43,789 nucleotides of DNA from a virus: the IMG/VR virus record IMGVR_UViG_3300036861_000467, positions 1 to 43,789 of that record. One strand, 5' to 3'. A program made the position numbers and the translations under genes. Positions 6,395-31,972 of this stretch are shown here, piece by piece; the first letter of the stretch is position 1, and every line of letters begins with the position of its first letter. The notes beneath the pieces were generated by a model. The model made no database searches. It saw only the letters and a program-made list of their open reading frames with translations, and was not told where the DNA came from.

Positions 6395-6530
6395 CGCTCT
6401 ACTAGCCAAACGACGGGGGCGGTTCGCGCCGAGCCACAGCGGTCGAACCGTCCTCGTGTCCCCCGTGGGGGCTGGCGGCGCCGACCTCACCGGCCCAGTC
6501 CAGCCCCCGCTCCCATGAAGGAGGAACGCA
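6395..6530. other. Structured intergenic segment with competing hairpins
   Basis: 136 bases without a gene between two late genes. A 10-bp stem forms between 6417-6426 and 6444-6453 (one G-U pair). A perfect 9-bp inverted repeat, GGGGGCTGG at 6467-6475 and CCAGCCCCC at 6500-6508, follows. CCCCC at 6460-6464 can instead pair with GGGGG at 6467-6471, so the two downstream folds exclude each other. The segment ends in a strong AAGGAGG before the next ATG. No T-run follows either stem, so it is not a typical terminator. Confidence 0.5.
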
Positions 6531-10926: not shown

Positions 10927-12633
10927 ATGGCGCGGCTAGTGACATCCGGTGGTGAGCTTCGCGATCACATCACCGTCGACATTGGCTCTCCTGACGGCTA
11001 TTCCGCGGGCGCGGCTGCGACGGCTACGGAGACGACCGTGGTGCGGACTGGTGTTTCTACAAAGTGCGCGGGGACAGCAGCGAACACGTCGTTTCGGGCG
11101 TTTCCGCTGGGAACGGTGGCGCTCGGCACGAGTATCTTCTTCCGCGCCTACGTCAACTTCAGCGCCCTCCCGTCAGCGACGAAGAAGGTTGCGGCGATCG
11201 TCGGTGGCGCGGGCGGCGTCACCGCTCTTGTTTCGGCGCGGCTGACGTCGGCCGGGCTACTGCAGTTGTGGAACGACGTCGCTGGAACACAGATCGGCTC
11301 TGACAGTGTGGACGTCCTCGCTGTTGACAGCTGGTATCGAGTCGAGCTGAAGCTGACGATCGGTACGGGCGCAGTCGATGACGCGGAGCTTCGGCTTGCC
11401 TTGCCGAGCGACCAATGGGATGCAGTGGGAGCCACGATCGCAGCGACCTCCGCGGTTTCTATCTCGGACGCGGTGCCAACACAGGCGCGTGTCGGCTGGA
11501 TCGACGCGCCCGGCGTCACCTCAAACCTGTTCTTCGATGACTGCGCGGTCAATGACTCGACGGGAACGAACCAGAGCACATGGCCCGGCGGCGGCCAAAT
11601 CAGCCTCGTCCTTGGCCTTGTCGCCGATGCGAAAACGGGCTGGCCAGACTGCCGCAACTCAGAGGCATATGACGTTGCACCTGAATTGCTGGATGCGCTG
11701 GGACGCATGCCCCCGACGGCGCACGCAGACTCGACAAGCGACACGACGGGACATCAAGTGCGGACGGCGGTAACGTCGGCGGGTCAGCATTTACAGGTGA
11801 TGCTCGACTCGTACTCGCGTTATGGGCTAATCGGAAACGTGATCTGCGATGAGGGCGGCGCCTCAGATGAACTAGTCGGACCATCGGCGACGCTCGCTCG
11901 TGTTGCATGGTCATTCTTCATGGTCGGCACGGTCGACTATGCCGAAGTCTTGTTGAAACGGCTCGGTTCACCAACCGATGACTTGATTGTTGAACTCTTG
12001 ACCGACACGGGGTCGAATAACCCTTCCGGAACGGTCCTTGCGACAGCGACGCTCGCAGCAGCAGGCATCACTACCGCGGCGTTTGGCGCCTGGTATCGCC
12101 TGCCAGCATGGGACGTACCGCTCACGACGGGGCAGCGGTACTGGTTGGCCTTCCGCCGTAGTGGCAGCTACGACAACGCGAATGTGATCGCCGTTCAACG
12201 GCTAGACACGCGAGTCGGCAACCACCAAGTCGCGTCTTATGTGGACCCGACCGGTTGGAGTGGCGCTGGCGCGTATTCAAAGCCGGGGATGCGTCTCTAC
12301 AACACGCAGGGCTACGCAACTGTGAAAGTGTTGCAGTCATGTGTGCTGCATGGTGAGGCGATCGCGACCGGAACGAAGACGGGGACTGTGCAGCTTACCG
12401 CTCGCCCCGCGGAACCGTCAGTAACAACCTTCGACTTCGGTAACAACGTTGGCGCGGCGGGGACATACCCGACGAACTGGCGTTGGAAGCGTGGCAACGT
12501 CACCTACGACTACAACCCCAAGTCGTCAGCGTACAGCCCGACCATAGTGGTGGAGAAGACGGACGGGACAACTCGGGTCGCGTTGACAGCTTTTCTGGGC
12601 GCGATGTTGGAGTTCACGCCGCCCCCTTTTTAG
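10927..12633 (+). CDS. Large probable virion/adhesion protein with LamG-like N-terminus
   Basis: 568 residues in the zero frame. Residues 60-210 look like a concanavalin/LamG-type jelly-roll: FFRAYVNFSALPSATKK, LLQLWNDVAGTQIG, DSWYRVELKLTIG, SNLFFDDCAVND. A second beta domain at about 315-430 (VDYAEVLLKRLG to GQRYWLAFRRSG) resembles choice-of-anchor or carbohydrate-binding modules seen in phage fibres. The zero frame ends at a TAG placed directly after CCCCCTTTTT. Reading shifts cleanly into the -1 frame there, adding 73 residues, so products of 568 and about 641 residues are expected. A head fibre or side fibre is the most likely role. Confidence 0.7.
   Translation: MARLVTSGGELRDHITVDIGSPDGYSAGAAATATETTVVRTGVSTKCAGTAANTSFRAFPLGTVALGTSIFFRAYVNFSALPSATKKVAAIVGGAGGVTALVSARLTSAGLLQLWNDVAGTQIGSDSVDVLAVDSWYRVELKLTIGTGAVDDAELRLALPSDQWDAVGATIAATSAVSISDAVPTQARVGWIDAPGVTSNLFFDDCAVNDSTGTNQSTWPGGGQISLVLGLVADAKTGWPDCRNSEAYDVAPELLDALGRMPPTAHADSTSDTTGHQVRTAVTSAGQHLQVMLDSYSRYGLIGNVICDEGGASDELVGPSATLARVAWSFFMVGTVDYAEVLLKRLGSPTDDLIVELLTDTGSNNPSGTVLATATLAAAGITTAAFGAWYRLPAWDVPLTTGQRYWLAFRRSGSYDNANVIAVQRLDTRVGNHQVASYVDPTGWSGAGAYSKPGMRLYNTQGYATVKVLQSCVLHGEAIATGTKTGTVQLTARPAEPSVTTFDFGNNVGAAGTYPTNWRWKRGNVTYDYNPKSSAYSPTIVVEKTDGTTRVALTAFLGAMLEFTPPPF
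12624..12630 (+). other. Slippery heptamer C CCT TTT for -1 frameshift
   Basis: In the zero frame the codons read CCC CCT TTT TAG, so bases 12624-12630 give a canonical X XXY YYZ site (CCCTTTT) immediately before the stop. Six bases downstream, GGCAGC at 12637-12642 can pair with GCTGCC at 12687-12692, with a smaller GCG-AAA-CGC hairpin inside the loop. Spacing and placement fit programmed -1 frameshifting. A base-count error in the run of C and T is the alternative. Confidence 0.6.
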
Positions 12634-12851
12634 GTTGGCAGCAATTCCAGAAGACCAGTGACTCAACGCTGTGGTGGGCGAAACGCGCTGCCTCCACGAT
12701 CGACGCGATGCGCGCGGACGGCGCGACCATCACGGCCAACTCCGGTGACTGGTTGATCTACCCCGATCCGCAAATTACCGAAGGCGAACTGCCGAACACG
12801 CTCACGACGGAAACAAACGACAACATCGACACGCTCTACACGCTCTTGTAG
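12630..12851 (+). CDS. -1 frame C-terminal extension of the preceding protein
   Basis: An open frame of 73 codons with no usable start codon at its head; the first ATG is 27 codons in. It reads as a sensible protein: FQKTSDSTLWWAKRAASTI, NSGDWLIYPDPQITEGELP and an acidic end NDNIDTLYTLL. Codon choice has the same G/C third-position bias as neighbouring genes. It is therefore most likely made only as a fusion to the upstream protein by slippage at 12624-12630. The stop is followed by the folded RNA candidate. Confidence 0.6.
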   Translation, partial: LGWQQFQKTSDSTLWWAKRAASTIDAMRADGATITANSGDWLIYPDPQITEGELPNTLTTETNDNIDTLYTLL

Positions 12852-12871
12852 ATGAGTACGTTCAGAAGTAA

Positions 12872-12953
12872 CGGTCCTCCCGCCTTCGGTGCTGACGGTC
12901 GGGAGAAAGCAGCACCGACATAACGGTGATCGTTATGAAGAACGGGAGGACCG
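12872..12953 (+). ncRNA. Candidate structured RNA, three-way junction
   Basis: Three perfect nested stems fill the intergenic space. P1 is CGGTCCTCCCG (12872-12882) with CGGGAGGACCG (12943-12953), 11 bp. P2 is TCGGTGCTG (12886-12894) with CAGCACCGA (12910-12918), 9 bp, closing a 15-base loop. P3 is ATAACG (12920-12925) with CGTTAT (12931-12936), 6 bp. Junctions are CCT, C and GAAGAA. The P2 loop contains CGGGAG (12900-12905), which can compete with the P1 3' strand for CTCCCG. The next ATG is 21 bases downstream. No known riboswitch or ribozyme core recognised. Strand is chosen from gene direction. Confidence 0.65.
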
Positions 12954-12973
12954 ATCGAGAGGATAACCGCTAG

Positions 12974-14251
12974 ATGGCCCTGGCGACGAAGAAAGGAACG
13001 TTCAATTGTCCCACCGCGGTGACGAATCCCTTCACCGTTAGCGGAGTCGGGTTCCAACCACTGGCAGTGATCTTGTGGTCGGCGTTCAACACCGCCGAAG
13101 GTAACGGAGTGCGCGCGAATAGCACTTTCGGGATCGCCACAGGATCGACGCAGCGCGTCACCCTTGCCGGCTGTTCCGATGATGCTGTCGCTGCATCGAA
13201 TACCGGCAAGACATCACGGACAACAGCTGCTTTCGTTGGCCTCTCGAACGGGACACCAACCGTGGACTGCATCGCCGACTTCGTAGCTTTCACCGCCGAT
13301 GGGTTCCAACTCAACTACAGCGACGCGGCCGGGGTCGCGAATCAGGTCGTTCACTACTTCGCGATAGGCGGGACGGATTTGAGTAACGCATTCGCGGGTT
13401 CGTGGACGATAGTGCGAACCACCGCTGGCACGGAGGCAACGACCGGGGTCGGGTTTATGCCCGATGCTGTCCTGTTCTTCTCCGCCACTTTCGCGGCACC
13501 CACGACGGCCGTCGACGACCAAATCTCAATCGGATATGCGATCCGCCAAACCGGGGAGCAGGGATCAATCTACTGGTTCGACAACGACGCCACGACCGCG
13601 ATCGACCTCGCCCGCTACCAGAACTCGACGCACTGTCTGGCGTTGGCGGCGGCGACAGCGGTGACTGAGGGTACAGCCACGATGTCGAGTTTCGACTCGG
13701 ATGGATTCACGCTGAACTGGGATGATCCCGTGTCCGCCGCCAGCCGGGTCTTCTACTACCTCGCCCTGAAGGGCGGCAACTACAAGGGTGGAGTCGGCAC
13801 GCAGCCAGCGACGAACACGACCACGACGCACACGACGGGGTTCCAGCCGAAGGGGACATTGGTGTTCGGGACGGACGCGACCGCGGACGGGCAAACCAGC
13901 GTGAACGGCGACCGGATGTTCATGTTCGGCGCCTCAGACCGCGGCTCGCAGGGAACACCCGCCGAAGGCGTGATCGCGAACGTCAACCGCGACGACTCCG
14001 CCACCGCCGCGAACGCAGTTGCCAAGAAACGACACCTGACAAGCGCGACGGCGACGATGATCAAAACGTCCGGCACCTCTATTGTGACCGCCGGCGACGC
14101 GAGCCTCACCGCCACCTCCACCAACGACTTCACATTGACCTGGACAGGCGTCGACGCGACGCAACGCCAGTTCTTCTGGTTGGCGTTCGGTGACACGCCG
14201 CCGCCGCCTGTCCCGCCAGTGTTCGCCTTGACAGCGGAGACACGGACATAG
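12974..14251 (+). CDS. Probable virion protein with three tandem beta repeats
   Basis: 425 residues built from about three copies of one module. Each begins with a GxGFQPxAVLFW-like strand (GVGFQPLAVILW, GVGFMPDAVLFF, TTGFQPKGTLVF) and ends with a DGFxLNWxD...FYYLALKG-like segment (DGFQLNYSDAAG, DGFTLNWDDPVS, NDFTLTWTGVD). The middle module has acidic turns around SIYWFDNDAT. No enzyme motif seen. The likely role is a surface-exposed head or tail fibre subunit. The C-terminal DTPPPPVPP linker-like tail stops at a TAG overlapped by the next gene. Confidence 0.65.
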   Translation: MALATKKGTFNCPTAVTNPFTVSGVGFQPLAVILWSAFNTAEGNGVRANSTFGIATGSTQRVTLAGCSDDAVAASNTGKTSRTTAAFVGLSNGTPTVDCIADFVAFTADGFQLNYSDAAGVANQVVHYFAIGGTDLSNAFAGSWTIVRTTAGTEATTGVGFMPDAVLFFSATFAAPTTAVDDQISIGYAIRQTGEQGSIYWFDNDATTAIDLARYQNSTHCLALAAATAVTEGTATMSSFDSDGFTLNWDDPVSAASRVFYYLALKGGNYKGGVGTQPATNTTTTHTTGFQPKGTLVFGTDATADGQTSVNGDRMFMFGASDRGSQGTPAEGVIANVNRDDSATAANAVAKKRHLTSATATMIKTSGTSIVTAGDASLTATSTNDFTLTWTGVDATQRQFFWLAFGDTPPPPVPPVFALTAETRT

Positions 14252-15291
14252 CCCGCCTACACAAGATTCAGCAGTACACGCGGCCGGAACTGGTCAGAGT
14301 CTCGCAACTGCTGGCGGCGCTTGAACCTTCCGCTGGCGGCCCGGTCACCTATACCAAGGCGGGTGCGCTGATAGCGGGGACGGTTACCGCTGGCGCTGAC
14401 GCGTTCTCGGCGACCGAAACGGGAGCATTGTTGGCCTCTGGGCTCTCGTCTGGGACGGATGCCGCTACATATGCGGAGATGGGTGCGCTACTTGGCGGTT
14501 CGCTGCTGAGCGGCGCGGATGTCTACACCGCAGCCGAAACCGGGGCGCTTATAGCTGGGGCTCTGCTGGCGGGCGCGTCGCAGAAGATCGGTGGCGGCAA
14601 GACTGGCTCGCTGACCGCGGGGACGCTCACTGCAGGCGAGGACGCGGCCACTGTTAACCGAACCGGCGTTCTTGTCACCGCTGCGCTTTTGGGGGGCGCG
14701 GACGCGTATACGAGCGCCGAAACAGGGGCCCTTGTCGCTGCAGCGTTGACGGCCGGCGGGGATGCCTACACGGCCGTGGAGACAGCCACCTTGGCCGCAG
14801 GCAGCCTGCTTGCTGGCGCCGATGTTCGTATCGCTGCGGAGGCGGGTTCGCTGCTCGCGGGGGCGCTGCTCGCGGGGGTCTCGGCGAAGGAGGCCGGCGC
14901 CAAGTCCGGCTCGCTCACGACCGCCGCGCAAGTGCGGGCCGCCGACGTTGTCGAGTACAGCGAAACTGGTGCGCTGATCGCGAGTGCGCTCACTTCCGGC
15001 GCAGATGCTCGCACGGCGGCGGAGACGGGTGCGTTGGTCACGGGCGCGTTGCTGCTCGGCGCCGACATCTACACCGCAATCAAGACCGGTGCCTTGTTCG
15101 TTGCCGCCCGGTTGTTCGGGACGGGGACGAAACGGGTGCCACCGCCGTTTCTTGAGGGCGGCGAGGTCTCCCTGGGCGTGGACGGGTTCGCAAGCAGCAT
15201 CCGCGGTGACGGGCGCCCACAGTCGAGCGGCGCGGACGCTGCCGCCTCAACCGCCGAGCTGGAAGGCACTCCCGCTTCGATCGGAGTCTGA
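14248..15291 (+). CDS. 20-residue tandem-repeat protein, unusual start
   Basis: About 347 residues if read from the ATA at 14248, which overlaps the previous stop (ATAG) and has GGAG eight bases upstream. The frame is open from 14194 but holds no ATG, GTG or TTG before TTG 14428, while the repeats clearly begin near 14360. Residues from about 38 to 300 are roughly 13 copies of a 20-residue unit, consensus TGALxAGALLAGADxYTAAE, forming a regular amphipathic solenoid-like pattern. The end is a distinct 50-residue segment after VPPPFLEGGE. Function unknown; fibre or spacer in the virion is plausible. Confidence 0.6.
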   Translation: MARLHKIQQYTRPELVRVSQLLAALEPSAGGPVTYTKAGALIAGTVTAGADAFSATETGALLASGLSSGTDAATYAEMGALLGGSLLSGADVYTAAETGALIAGALLAGASQKIGGGKTGSLTAGTLTAGEDAATVNRTGVLVTAALLGGADAYTSAETGALVAAALTAGGDAYTAVETATLAAGSLLAGADVRIAAEAGSLLAGALLAGVSAKEAGAKSGSLTTAAQVRAADVVEYSETGALIASALTSGADARTAAETGALVTGALLLGADIYTAIKTGALFVAARLFGTGTKRVPPPFLEGGEVSLGVDGFASSIRGDGRPQSSGADAAASTAELEGTPASIGV

Positions 15292-26337: not shown

Positions 26338-26566
26338 CGGTTTCCTTTCGAAACGCCTCCTCGGGCCAGCTCGAAAGGGCAGCGAGCTTCTGCTGATAGG
26401 GCCTGCTGATGTTCCCCCGGGCGTTGGCCCACCTGTTTACGGTCTCTCGAGGAGCGTTGAGGGCTAATGCAAGCCGTTGCTGCCAATCCCCTTCCGTCCC
26501 GAGGCGGTCCGCGATCACCCTCAGGCGATTCGGCAGGCTCAGCTCCCGCCACTCGTTTCTCGTCAC
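26153..26566 (-). CDS. Leftward HTH regulator, candidate immunity repressor
   Basis: 137 residues from GTG 26566, or 140 from GTG 26575. Residues 28-62 look like a helix-turn-helix (WQQRLALALNAPRETVNRWANAR then ISRPYQQKLAAL), and 78-133 are a long coiled coil (QIQRQLAEGIEIL...VAELRTLRDDLQRLV) suited to dimerisation. It diverges from the XRE-type gene across a 4-copy operator region. The GTGACG start lies inside an operator copy, so binding would block its own expression. No peptidase domain for RecA-driven cleavage. It could equally be the Cro-like partner. Confidence 0.65.
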   Translation of the reverse strand: MTRNEWRELSLPNRLRVIADRLGTEGDWQQRLALALNAPRETVNRWANARGNISRPYQQKLAALSSWPEEAFRKETAMDQIQRQLAEGIEILAATGARASVALEQLQPLLEDQKSLVAELRTLRDDLQRLVTAMQRG

Positions 26567-26656
26567 GTGACGCACTTTCCCGCATAGAGCGGGGCCTGTA
26601 AAGAGACGCTGGACTTGACACGTGACGACCCGTGACGTATAACACGTCACGTGACG
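26561..26656. promoter_or_regulatory. Divergent operator/promoter region of the lysogeny switch
   Basis: Perfect 12-bp palindrome CGTCACGTGACG at 26561-26572 and 26645-26656; partial copies at 26616-26627 (9 of 12) and 26626-26637 (10 of 12). A near-consensus rightward promoter, TTGACA (26615-26620), 17 bases, TATAAC (26638-26643), predicts a transcript starting at about 26650, at the GTG 26651, hence a leaderless mRNA. Operator copies cover the -35, the spacer and the start site. The leftward promoter is less clear (TATGCG just before GTG 26575). Confidence 0.75.
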
Positions 26657-26983
26657 CCCCGTACGCAAGTTCAGCGGCTGCCCCTTCACGAACGAATCGT
26701 CTGGGCCAGGAAGCGGAAAGGCCTCTCGCAGGAGCGGCTGGCCGAGAAGATCGGCACCTCGCGGCGGCACATGATCCGGATCGAGAAGGGCCGCGAAAAT
26801 GGCGGCCATCGTCCCGGCCCGGAACTGATCGCTCGGATCGCGGAGGCGACGGGTCAGCCTGTCGCGCTGTTCGCGGACGACGAAGAGGAGGACGACGACT
26901 TGGCCGCCTCGCTCGTCGGGATGTTTCGCACTGTCATACGCCGCGAGATGGCGTCGCTGCAGAACGATGAGGTGGTCGCGTGA
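26651..26983 (+). CDS. XRE-family HTH regulator (Cro/CI-like)
   Basis: 110 residues starting at GTG 26651 inside an operator palindrome and probably at the first base of its mRNA. A classic HTH_3 domain spans residues 13-75: RIVWARKRKGLSQERLAEKIGTSRRHMIRIEKGRENGG, PELIARIAEATGQPVALFADD. An acidic linker and a short helical tail follow. It binds DNA as a dimer, most likely the CGTCACGTGACG sites. It is the first gene of the rightward early operon, the usual Cro position, but it could be the repressor. Confidence 0.85.
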   Translation: MTPRTQVQRLPLHERIVWARKRKGLSQERLAEKIGTSRRHMIRIEKGRENGGHRPGPELIARIAEATGQPVALFADDEEEDDDLAASLVGMFRTVIRREMASLQNDEVVA

Positions 26984-30212: not shown

Positions 30213-31162
30213 GCGTCTTCGAGCAGACAGCCGTCCGCGCGTCCGAGTTGGCTCGGTGCGCCCGCATGGCCGCCTACCGTGGCCTAGGCGTCACCCCGCG
30301 CGAACACGACGAACAAACCCGACGCTACTTCTCGCGCGGGCGTCTGTACGCGCACTACGTCTGTGACCAGCTACGTGCGAAGCACGGCGCCGAGAACGTC
30401 GAGGAAGAAGTCGAGATCGAATGGCCTTTGGGTGTCGGGCATGCGGACGCGTACATCATTCCGGCGAAACTGCTCGTTGAGATCAAGAGCACGGTCACCC
30501 CATCAACGTCGAGTCCGATGTTCGAGATGGCCGTCGCGCAGCTCCAGATTTATCTCCGCTACCACCCGGAGGCCGAACGCGGCGCGCTCTATCTCCTCAA
30601 TCCTTCTGACCTTCGCGGCGAGGACGTGTTCCAGGTTGTCCTGATCGAAGAGGATCGAGAGCGGATCGATGCCGCAGTGGCCGCAGTGCGGAACGCTCTC
30701 GACGGAGGCGACCTACCCCCGCGCGTCTGCTCCCGACCCGGGCAGGCGCGCGGCCGCCTCTGCCCCTTCGCCGAACCATGCTTCGAAGACTGGGCGCCGC
30801 CAGCACCCTCGCTCTCCTCGGATCCGGAGGTGCTTGAGGTCGTGACCCGCCTTGTGGCGATCAAGGCGGAGGAGCGGACTCATAAGCAGGCTGTCCAGGG
30901 TCTCGCGGCGGGCAAGGAGCTTGCGCAATCAGAGCTTGCGGAGCTCCTGCCCGTCGGTGAGACGGTGGTGGGGCCGTGGAAGGTGACGCGCACGCACGTC
31001 CAAAAGCAGCCGGTGTTCCAGCCGAAGGTCGCGCGCGCTGCGGGGTTCCCAGTCGAAGCGCTAGAGGAGTTCATGCGTCCAGGGGCGGTCTACGACCTTT
31101 GGAAAGTCGGACGGGCCGAAGAGTCCGGCGATATCGACTTTGGTGAGGAGCCTCCGTTTTGA
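30209..31162 (+). CDS. Cas4/RecB-like exonuclease with Fe-S cysteines
   Basis: 317 residues from ATG 30209. PD-(D/E)xK core: Asp80 in GHADAYI, Glu91 and Lys93 in VEIKST, then the motif Q111xxxY115 (QLQIY). One early cysteine (C17 in LARCARM) and three late ones (C174, C185, C191 in VCSRPGQ, LCPFAEPCF) fit the [4Fe-4S] cluster of Cas4 and AddB enzymes. It would resect DNA ends to single strands. Paired with RecT it makes a complete two-part recombination system. No cas genes or repeats lie nearby, so a CRISPR role is not supported. Confidence 0.85.
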   Translation: MSVFEQTAVRASELARCARMAAYRGLGVTPREHDEQTRRYFSRGRLYAHYVCDQLRAKHGAENVEEEVEIEWPLGVGHADAYIIPAKLLVEIKSTVTPSTSSPMFEMAVAQLQIYLRYHPEAERGALYLLNPSDLRGEDVFQVVLIEEDRERIDAAVAAVRNALDGGDLPPRVCSRPGQARGRLCPFAEPCFEDWAPPAPSLSSDPEVLEVVTRLVAIKAEERTHKQAVQGLAAGKELAQSELAELLPVGETVVGPWKVTRTHVQKQPVFQPKVARAAGFPVEALEEFMRPGAVYDLWKVGRAEESGDIDFGEEPPF

Positions 31163-31581: not shown

Positions 31582-31751
31582 TCGCCTGGATCATCATGGC
31601 GCTCGCGTTCACCGGAGGAGTCCTCTGCGGCGTCCTCCTCTCCTTCGGCCTCGTAATGGACACGATCCGTCGTACTCGCTCACGAGCCAGCGTGGACATC
31701 AGCGAGGTGCTGCAGCCGCACCGGATCGAAAAGGGAGGGGCGGGGCGTTGA
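31578..31751 (+). CDS. Small membrane protein, 57 aa
   Basis: TTG 31578 overlapping the HNH stop, or ATG 31596. One transmembrane helix (IAWIIMALAFTGGVLCGVLLSFGLVM) and a basic cytoplasmic tail (IRRTRSRASVDISEVLQPHRIEKGG). Unknown function; possibly superinfection-related, but only membrane location is supported. Confidence 0.5.
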   Translation: MIAWIIMALAFTGGVLCGVLLSFGLVMDTIRRTRSRASVDISEVLQPHRIEKGGAGR

Positions 31752-31972
31752 TGGCGGGGGACGTCAGCGGGGCGACTGAGGCGTCCCTCGCCATGAGCGC
31801 CCTGACCAAGCGAGAGCGGGAAGAGATCGAGATGGACCTGGCCATCCTCCGCGACGGCCTGAACGGGGCGCTCAACGGCACCGCTCGCGTGATCCACTGG
31901 GAGCGCCGCGGCGAATGGATCGCCCGGACGATGCGCGAGATCCTGCGGCTTGAGGGGCTGCTCGCACGGTGA
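31751..31972 (+). CDS. Helical protein preceding integrase, 73 aa
   Basis: ATG 31751 shares a base with the previous stop. Charged helices: LTKREREEIEMDLAILRDGLNG and IHWERRGEWIARTMREILRLEGLL. It overlaps the integrase start by 4 bases. An excisionase or recombination-direction role is possible from location, but no winged-helix motif is evident. Confidence 0.55.
   Translation: MAGDVSGATEASLAMSALTKREREEIEMDLAILRDGLNGALNGTARVIHWERRGEWIARTMREILRLEGLLAR

Follow-up and report, generated by a model that had tools for sequence, protein, structure and literature searches.

A three-way junction of perfect stems between late genes of a probably temperate tailed phage, tentatively read as a structured intercistronic spacer

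Cluster K mycobacteriophages carry Extended Start Associated Sequences (ESAS), multi-copy start-associated inverted repeats that are tied to the 13 bp repeat GGGATAGGAGCCC and have imperfect 17 bp arms (PMC3203893). Stem-loop terminators followed by T-rich tracts have been described in cluster O mycobacteriophages (PMC4351075), and HK022 putRNA is a two-stem RNA of early operons that acts in cis on RNA polymerase (PMC9378689). A search of the literature on intergenic stem-loops of phage late operons returned no direct precedent.

The element analysed here comprises 82 bases (12872-12953) of a viral record of 43,789 bases, a single virus sequence without further contigs that was analysed over its whole length (the window). 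It resembles ESAS in that both are inverted repeats of actinobacteriophages placed just 5' of a translation start, but its arms are perfect; membership in that group was rejected given that the element is present in a single copy in its own genome and the SAS 13-mer does not occur in the gap. The cluster O terminators have similar stem lengths and also lie near virion genes, whereas no T-tract follows the element. Like HK022 putRNA (about 70 nt), it has two side-by-side stem-loops; in contrast to that RNA, it sits in a late operon and has a closing stem.

Genes for terminase, portal, protease, capsid, adaptor, tape-measure, RecT, DnaB, and tyrosine integrase were identified in the window, and the source virus is therefore probably a temperate tailed phage. 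The best-listed capsid relatives among phages belong to Gordonia, Mycobacterium, and Rhodococcus phages (33-37% identity), and capsid relatives in prophage regions of Streptomyces and Mycobacterium share 32-39% identity. Uncultivated viral contigs are closer than cultured phages, the nearest (L059) having 70% identity in the capsid and 62% in the adaptor. The three-way junction is placed between the capsid and adaptor genes, amid virion-type proteins mostly without a family match. Late genes are all co-directional and their junctions are mostly tight (-46 to +43 nt, except for two larger overlaps). Two gaps of 120-122 nt occur in the late operon up to the gene downstream of the element, and stems fill both; the other one (6395-6514, + strand) follows the gene after the capsid gene and has two stems.

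The gap that holds the element measures 122 nt (12852-12973). Upstream of it, an ORF on the + strand (12483-12851), in the -1 frame relative to ORF 10927-12633, ends in TAG 20 nt before the element; downstream, a virion-type repeat-domain gene (12974-14251, + strand) begins 20 nt after it. The start of this gene is conserved in distant homologs (about 23-36% identity) that do not have the spacer, most of which begin 0-13 nt after the preceding ORF, and no comparable stem was seen upstream of them.

The element consists of three nested stems without mismatches, 11, 9, and 7 bp long, all delimited on the + strand from sequence and fold. P1 pairs CGGTCCTCCCG (12872-12882) with CGGGAGGACCG (12943-12953) over 11 bp, P2 pairs TCGGTGCTG (12886-12894) with CAGCACCGA (12910-12918) over 9 bp, and P3 pairs CATAACG (12919-12925) with CGTTATG (12931-12937) over 7 bp. 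The junction strands are CCU, none, and AAGAA, and 27/27 base pairs are Watson-Crick, with no G-U. The P1 3' strand includes GGGAGGA, which is at no usable distance from any start codon, and the P2 loop (12895-12909, + strand) includes CGGGAG (12900-12905), a partial copy of the P1 3' strand. An earlier note on this DNA had correctly reported a compact three-way junction between virion genes, that copy, the 11 and 9 bp stems, the CCT strand, the distance of 20 bases from the upstream gene, and the occupation of most of the 122-base gap; it had described the third stem as 6 bp, the remaining junction strands as C and GAAGAA, although no unpaired base separates P2 from P3, and the distance to the next start as 21 rather than 20 nt.

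The minimum free energy of the element is -46.9 kcal/mol (z -7.6; 0/200 shuffles equally good), and a 90-nt segment around it is the strongest fold of the whole window when both strands are ranked. Arrangements with P1 of at least 11, P2 of at least 9, and P3 of at least 6 bp and junctions of at most 8 nt occurred in 0/400 order-2 simulated windows, a looser 9/8/6 arrangement in 1/400, and 1.2 Mb of fetched sequence, drawn mostly from related phage loci, contained no such three-stem arrangement. The fold far exceeds what chance would give. When the flanking sequence was included in the folding, P1-P3 stayed intact and the downstream ATG was predicted to be about 82-84% unpaired; weak pairing involved part of the Shine-Dalgarno region and the bases immediately 5' of the ATG. 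The Shine-Dalgarno-like GAGAGGA of the downstream gene (12957-12963, + strand), placed from the sequence and this context fold, lies outside the three-way junction.

Structured gaps also occur in related phages. At loci with related capsid or adaptor genes, 18/122 gaps folded at z<-3 against 0/114 coding controls, counts that are approximate, with simple gene calling. Strong hairpins following the capsid gene or preceding the adaptor gene were found in L004, L046, L048, L050/L006, L059, L070/L007, and L071, and the late gaps of L004, L046, L048, L050, L059, L070, and L071 have, as here, perfect long stems within the virion operon. Where measured, the relatives' hairpins end 15-24 nt upstream of the next start codon, and the element ends at 20 nt. 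In the nearest relative, the gap in the same place as the other long gap of the window (6395-6514) is also structured (1773-1916 of L059); the two differ in sequence and both have strong stems. The relatives' gaps carry single hairpins, often directly past the capsid gene, whereas a three-way junction of this kind was seen only here, and some of their hairpins are terminator-like with T-rich tails, which the element does not have. Given the shared placement, the best reading of this comparison would be that the element is an elaborate member of the relatives' structured-gap habit, a likeness of placement and not of descent.

The element was compared with Rfam, phage and plasmid records, actinobacterial genomes, and IMG/VR. 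In line with the earlier note, which recognised none, it corresponds to no known riboswitch, ribozyme, or packaging RNA: the window gave 0 Rfam matches at the gathering threshold, and the best sub-threshold score was 17 bits, against 70 required, for a miRNA family. Phage and plasmid records yielded no homologous DNA, matches to Streptomyces plasmids having E about 4. Apart from the window itself, a covariance model built from the one sequence found nothing convincing among 69 fetched loci and 18 whole records including the nearest relatives; its weak matches (12-21 bits) scored lower than the reverse strand of the model itself (23.5 bits). With the 122 nt as query, blastn gave short matches in 71/395 actinobacterial genomes at per-genome E-values near chance, and such a fold was absent from the matches inspected. 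Scans of IMG/VR with the P1 arms and with the P2 arms plus P3 matched five contigs, none of which had the fold.

The P1-arm scan accounted for one of these contigs (L045), the interior of which is different. Its gap at 1380-1458 contains a 13 bp perfect stem in which GGTCCTCCCG/CGGGAGGACC is common to P1. This contig was rejected as a homolog, its stem being without a three-way junction and a capsid-profile match not being found in its record. A dispersed mobile element or MITE was likewise rejected, since the lone P1-arm match has an unrelated interior and the P2/P3 matches are without the fold.

Because homologs are absent from the searched collections and the downstream-gene homologs have no comparable stem, the element appears to be lineage-specific within the limits of these collections. 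It belongs to no known family. Nor is it established as a new family, because there is one copy without homologs and the simpler structured gaps of relatives provide an ordinary context. A self-cleaving ribozyme was rejected, with neither a core motif nor an Rfam match present. The hammerhead core consists of three stems with CUGANGA and GAAA strands at the junction, and the strands CCU, none, and AAGAA do not give it. An intrinsic terminator is unlikely, because the sequence after the P1 3' end, ATCGAGAGGATAACC, has no U-tract and there was no + strand terminator call.

We propose that this 82-base element serves the late polycistronic mRNA as a structured intercistronic spacer, with a rough probability of 0.45; this is the most likely reading, ahead of a new kind of switch. 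The strong fold is confined to the gap between co-directional late genes and leaves the next ribosome site mostly free. As a start codon that is not hidden and a stem that is not terminator-like suggest, a barrier, a processing boundary, or an insulator would fit best. The + strand transcript would fold into the three-way junction within the late mRNA and occupy the space between a ribosome terminating on the upstream gene and a 30S subunit initiating on the following one. It would leave 20 nt free on each side, which is about what a ribosome needs. The stable fold would then most likely act as a roadblock to exonucleases or as a boundary for endonuclease processing, and would insulate the downstream virion gene so that it initiates on its own Shine-Dalgarno sequence. 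The sequences themselves show fold potential, placement, predicted start-codon accessibility, and the similar placement of single hairpins in relatives; we infer transcription, folding in vivo, and an effect on decay, processing, or coupling.

Several points weigh against the structured spacer. No homolog was found that would display selection for the fold, and the downstream-gene homologs appear to manage spacer-free. The comparison with relatives may mix functions, because these have single hairpins of which some are terminator-like with T-rich tails. The predicted weak pairing of part of the Shine-Dalgarno motif and of the bases before the ATG would also count against it. From a single late transcript, phages produce virion proteins at widely differing levels, which structured spacers could plausibly bring about. 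The element is unusually elaborate and self-contained and is therefore easy to test; should it turn out to have no function, it would illustrate how misleading an isolated perfect fold can be.

A translation-coupled leader is an unlikely alternative. A ribosome stopping at the TAG that ends at 12851 would restart at ATG 12852 on a putative 23-codon mini-ORF (12852-12923, + strand), pass through P1 and P2, and end in P3. A putative 12-codon ORF (12935-12973, + strand), whose ATG lies in the P3 3' strand, would then hand the ribosome to ATG 12974, and formation of the three-way junction would report translation of the upstream gene. Both handovers use TAGATG, the six + strand copies of which (6/6 in the window) all stand at ORF junctions, both gap ends included, and the two candidate ORFs span nearly the whole gap. 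The downstream start, however, is preceded by a Shine-Dalgarno motif of its own and is itself mostly unpaired in the fold; the motif of the second ORF is weak by inspection, and there is no homolog for a check of codon constraint. The case for a leader peptide is one of layout.

A role as DNA is about equally doubtful. The site would be protein-binding or cruciform-forming, or would be the remnant of a small mobile element with a TAGATG duplication on its flanks. Both strands, and the DNA as well, fold with equal strength and G-U pairs are absent, so that RNA and DNA readings are indistinguishable by sequence. The two TAGATG copies 122 nt apart at the gap ends and the missing spacer in downstream-gene homologs would suit an insertion, but TAGATG is the usual stop/start junction in this phage, and terminal inverted repeats are absent at the gap edges. 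The single genomic copy, without copies in phage or plasmid records, and the different interior of the one contig found by the P1-arm scan of IMG/VR also argue against it. An RNA reading of the element is likely.

More improbable is a translation-sensing junction, in which ribosomes on the upstream gene would, via the stop/start-linked mini-ORFs, melt or permit the fold, and the next mRNA segment would be kept or cut accordingly. If true, it would fix the stoichiometry of late phage proteins.

An independent small RNA or bistable riboregulator acting through the CGGGAG/CTCCCG alternative is given as little credence. The earlier note had taken this alternative pairing as switch-like, a suggestion that is not supported: forced pairing of CGGGAG with CTCCCG (12877-12882) gave -30.2 instead of -46.9 kcal/mol, and the final fold leaves the start codon mostly unpaired. 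The alternative hairpin is predicted when only the 5' half has been transcribed (-15.4 kcal/mol to about 12913) and is the minimum free energy fold until about nucleotide 12913-12916, but it is outcompeted once P2 is complete. Two near-equal exclusive folds, as in a bistable riboswitch, were therefore rejected; with the alternative 16.7 kcal/mol worse in the full RNA, a switch role is predicted to be unlikely. A search limited to promoters of the sigma-70-like type found none nearby, an Rfam match is absent, and there are no homologs from which to seek a conserved ligand-like core.

An antitermination or elongation-control RNA is the least probable of the alternatives. In its neighbouring stem-loops, separated by hardly any linker, the element is like the two-stem putRNA, but put elements lie downstream of early promoters (PMC9378689), and the element is closed by the 11 bp P1 deep in a late operon.

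Two forms of recoding were also rejected. As a stimulator of -1 frameshifting, the element would be too far from the candidate slippery site near 12624-12633, about 240 nt upstream. Ribosome bypassing of the T4 gene 60 type is countered by the TTG codon before the TAG, for which no matching landing codon exists near 12974, and by the downstream gene's own conserved start.

Several features of the window stand apart from the element. ORF 10927-12633 terminates in CCCCCTTTTTAG (window 12600-12660), and the -1 frame, open at 12444-12851, is a plausible C-terminal continuation of it without a clear start of its own; 12600-12660 may hold either a homopolymer error or a programmed -1 frameshift at C CCT TTT. 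For the repeat protein whose listed start is TTG 14428, repeat units also occur 5' of this start, in a reading frame that is open from 14194, is -1 relative to gene 12974-14251, and has no ATG/GTG/TTG upstream of 14428; a second -1 frameshift or a non-AUG start is possible at 14194-14428. Near copies of the palindrome CGTCACGTGACG lie within about 100 bases at 26560-26662 and are operator-array-like. The next strongest RNA folds of the window are at 31741-31830 and 30886-30990, in the recombination/integrase region.
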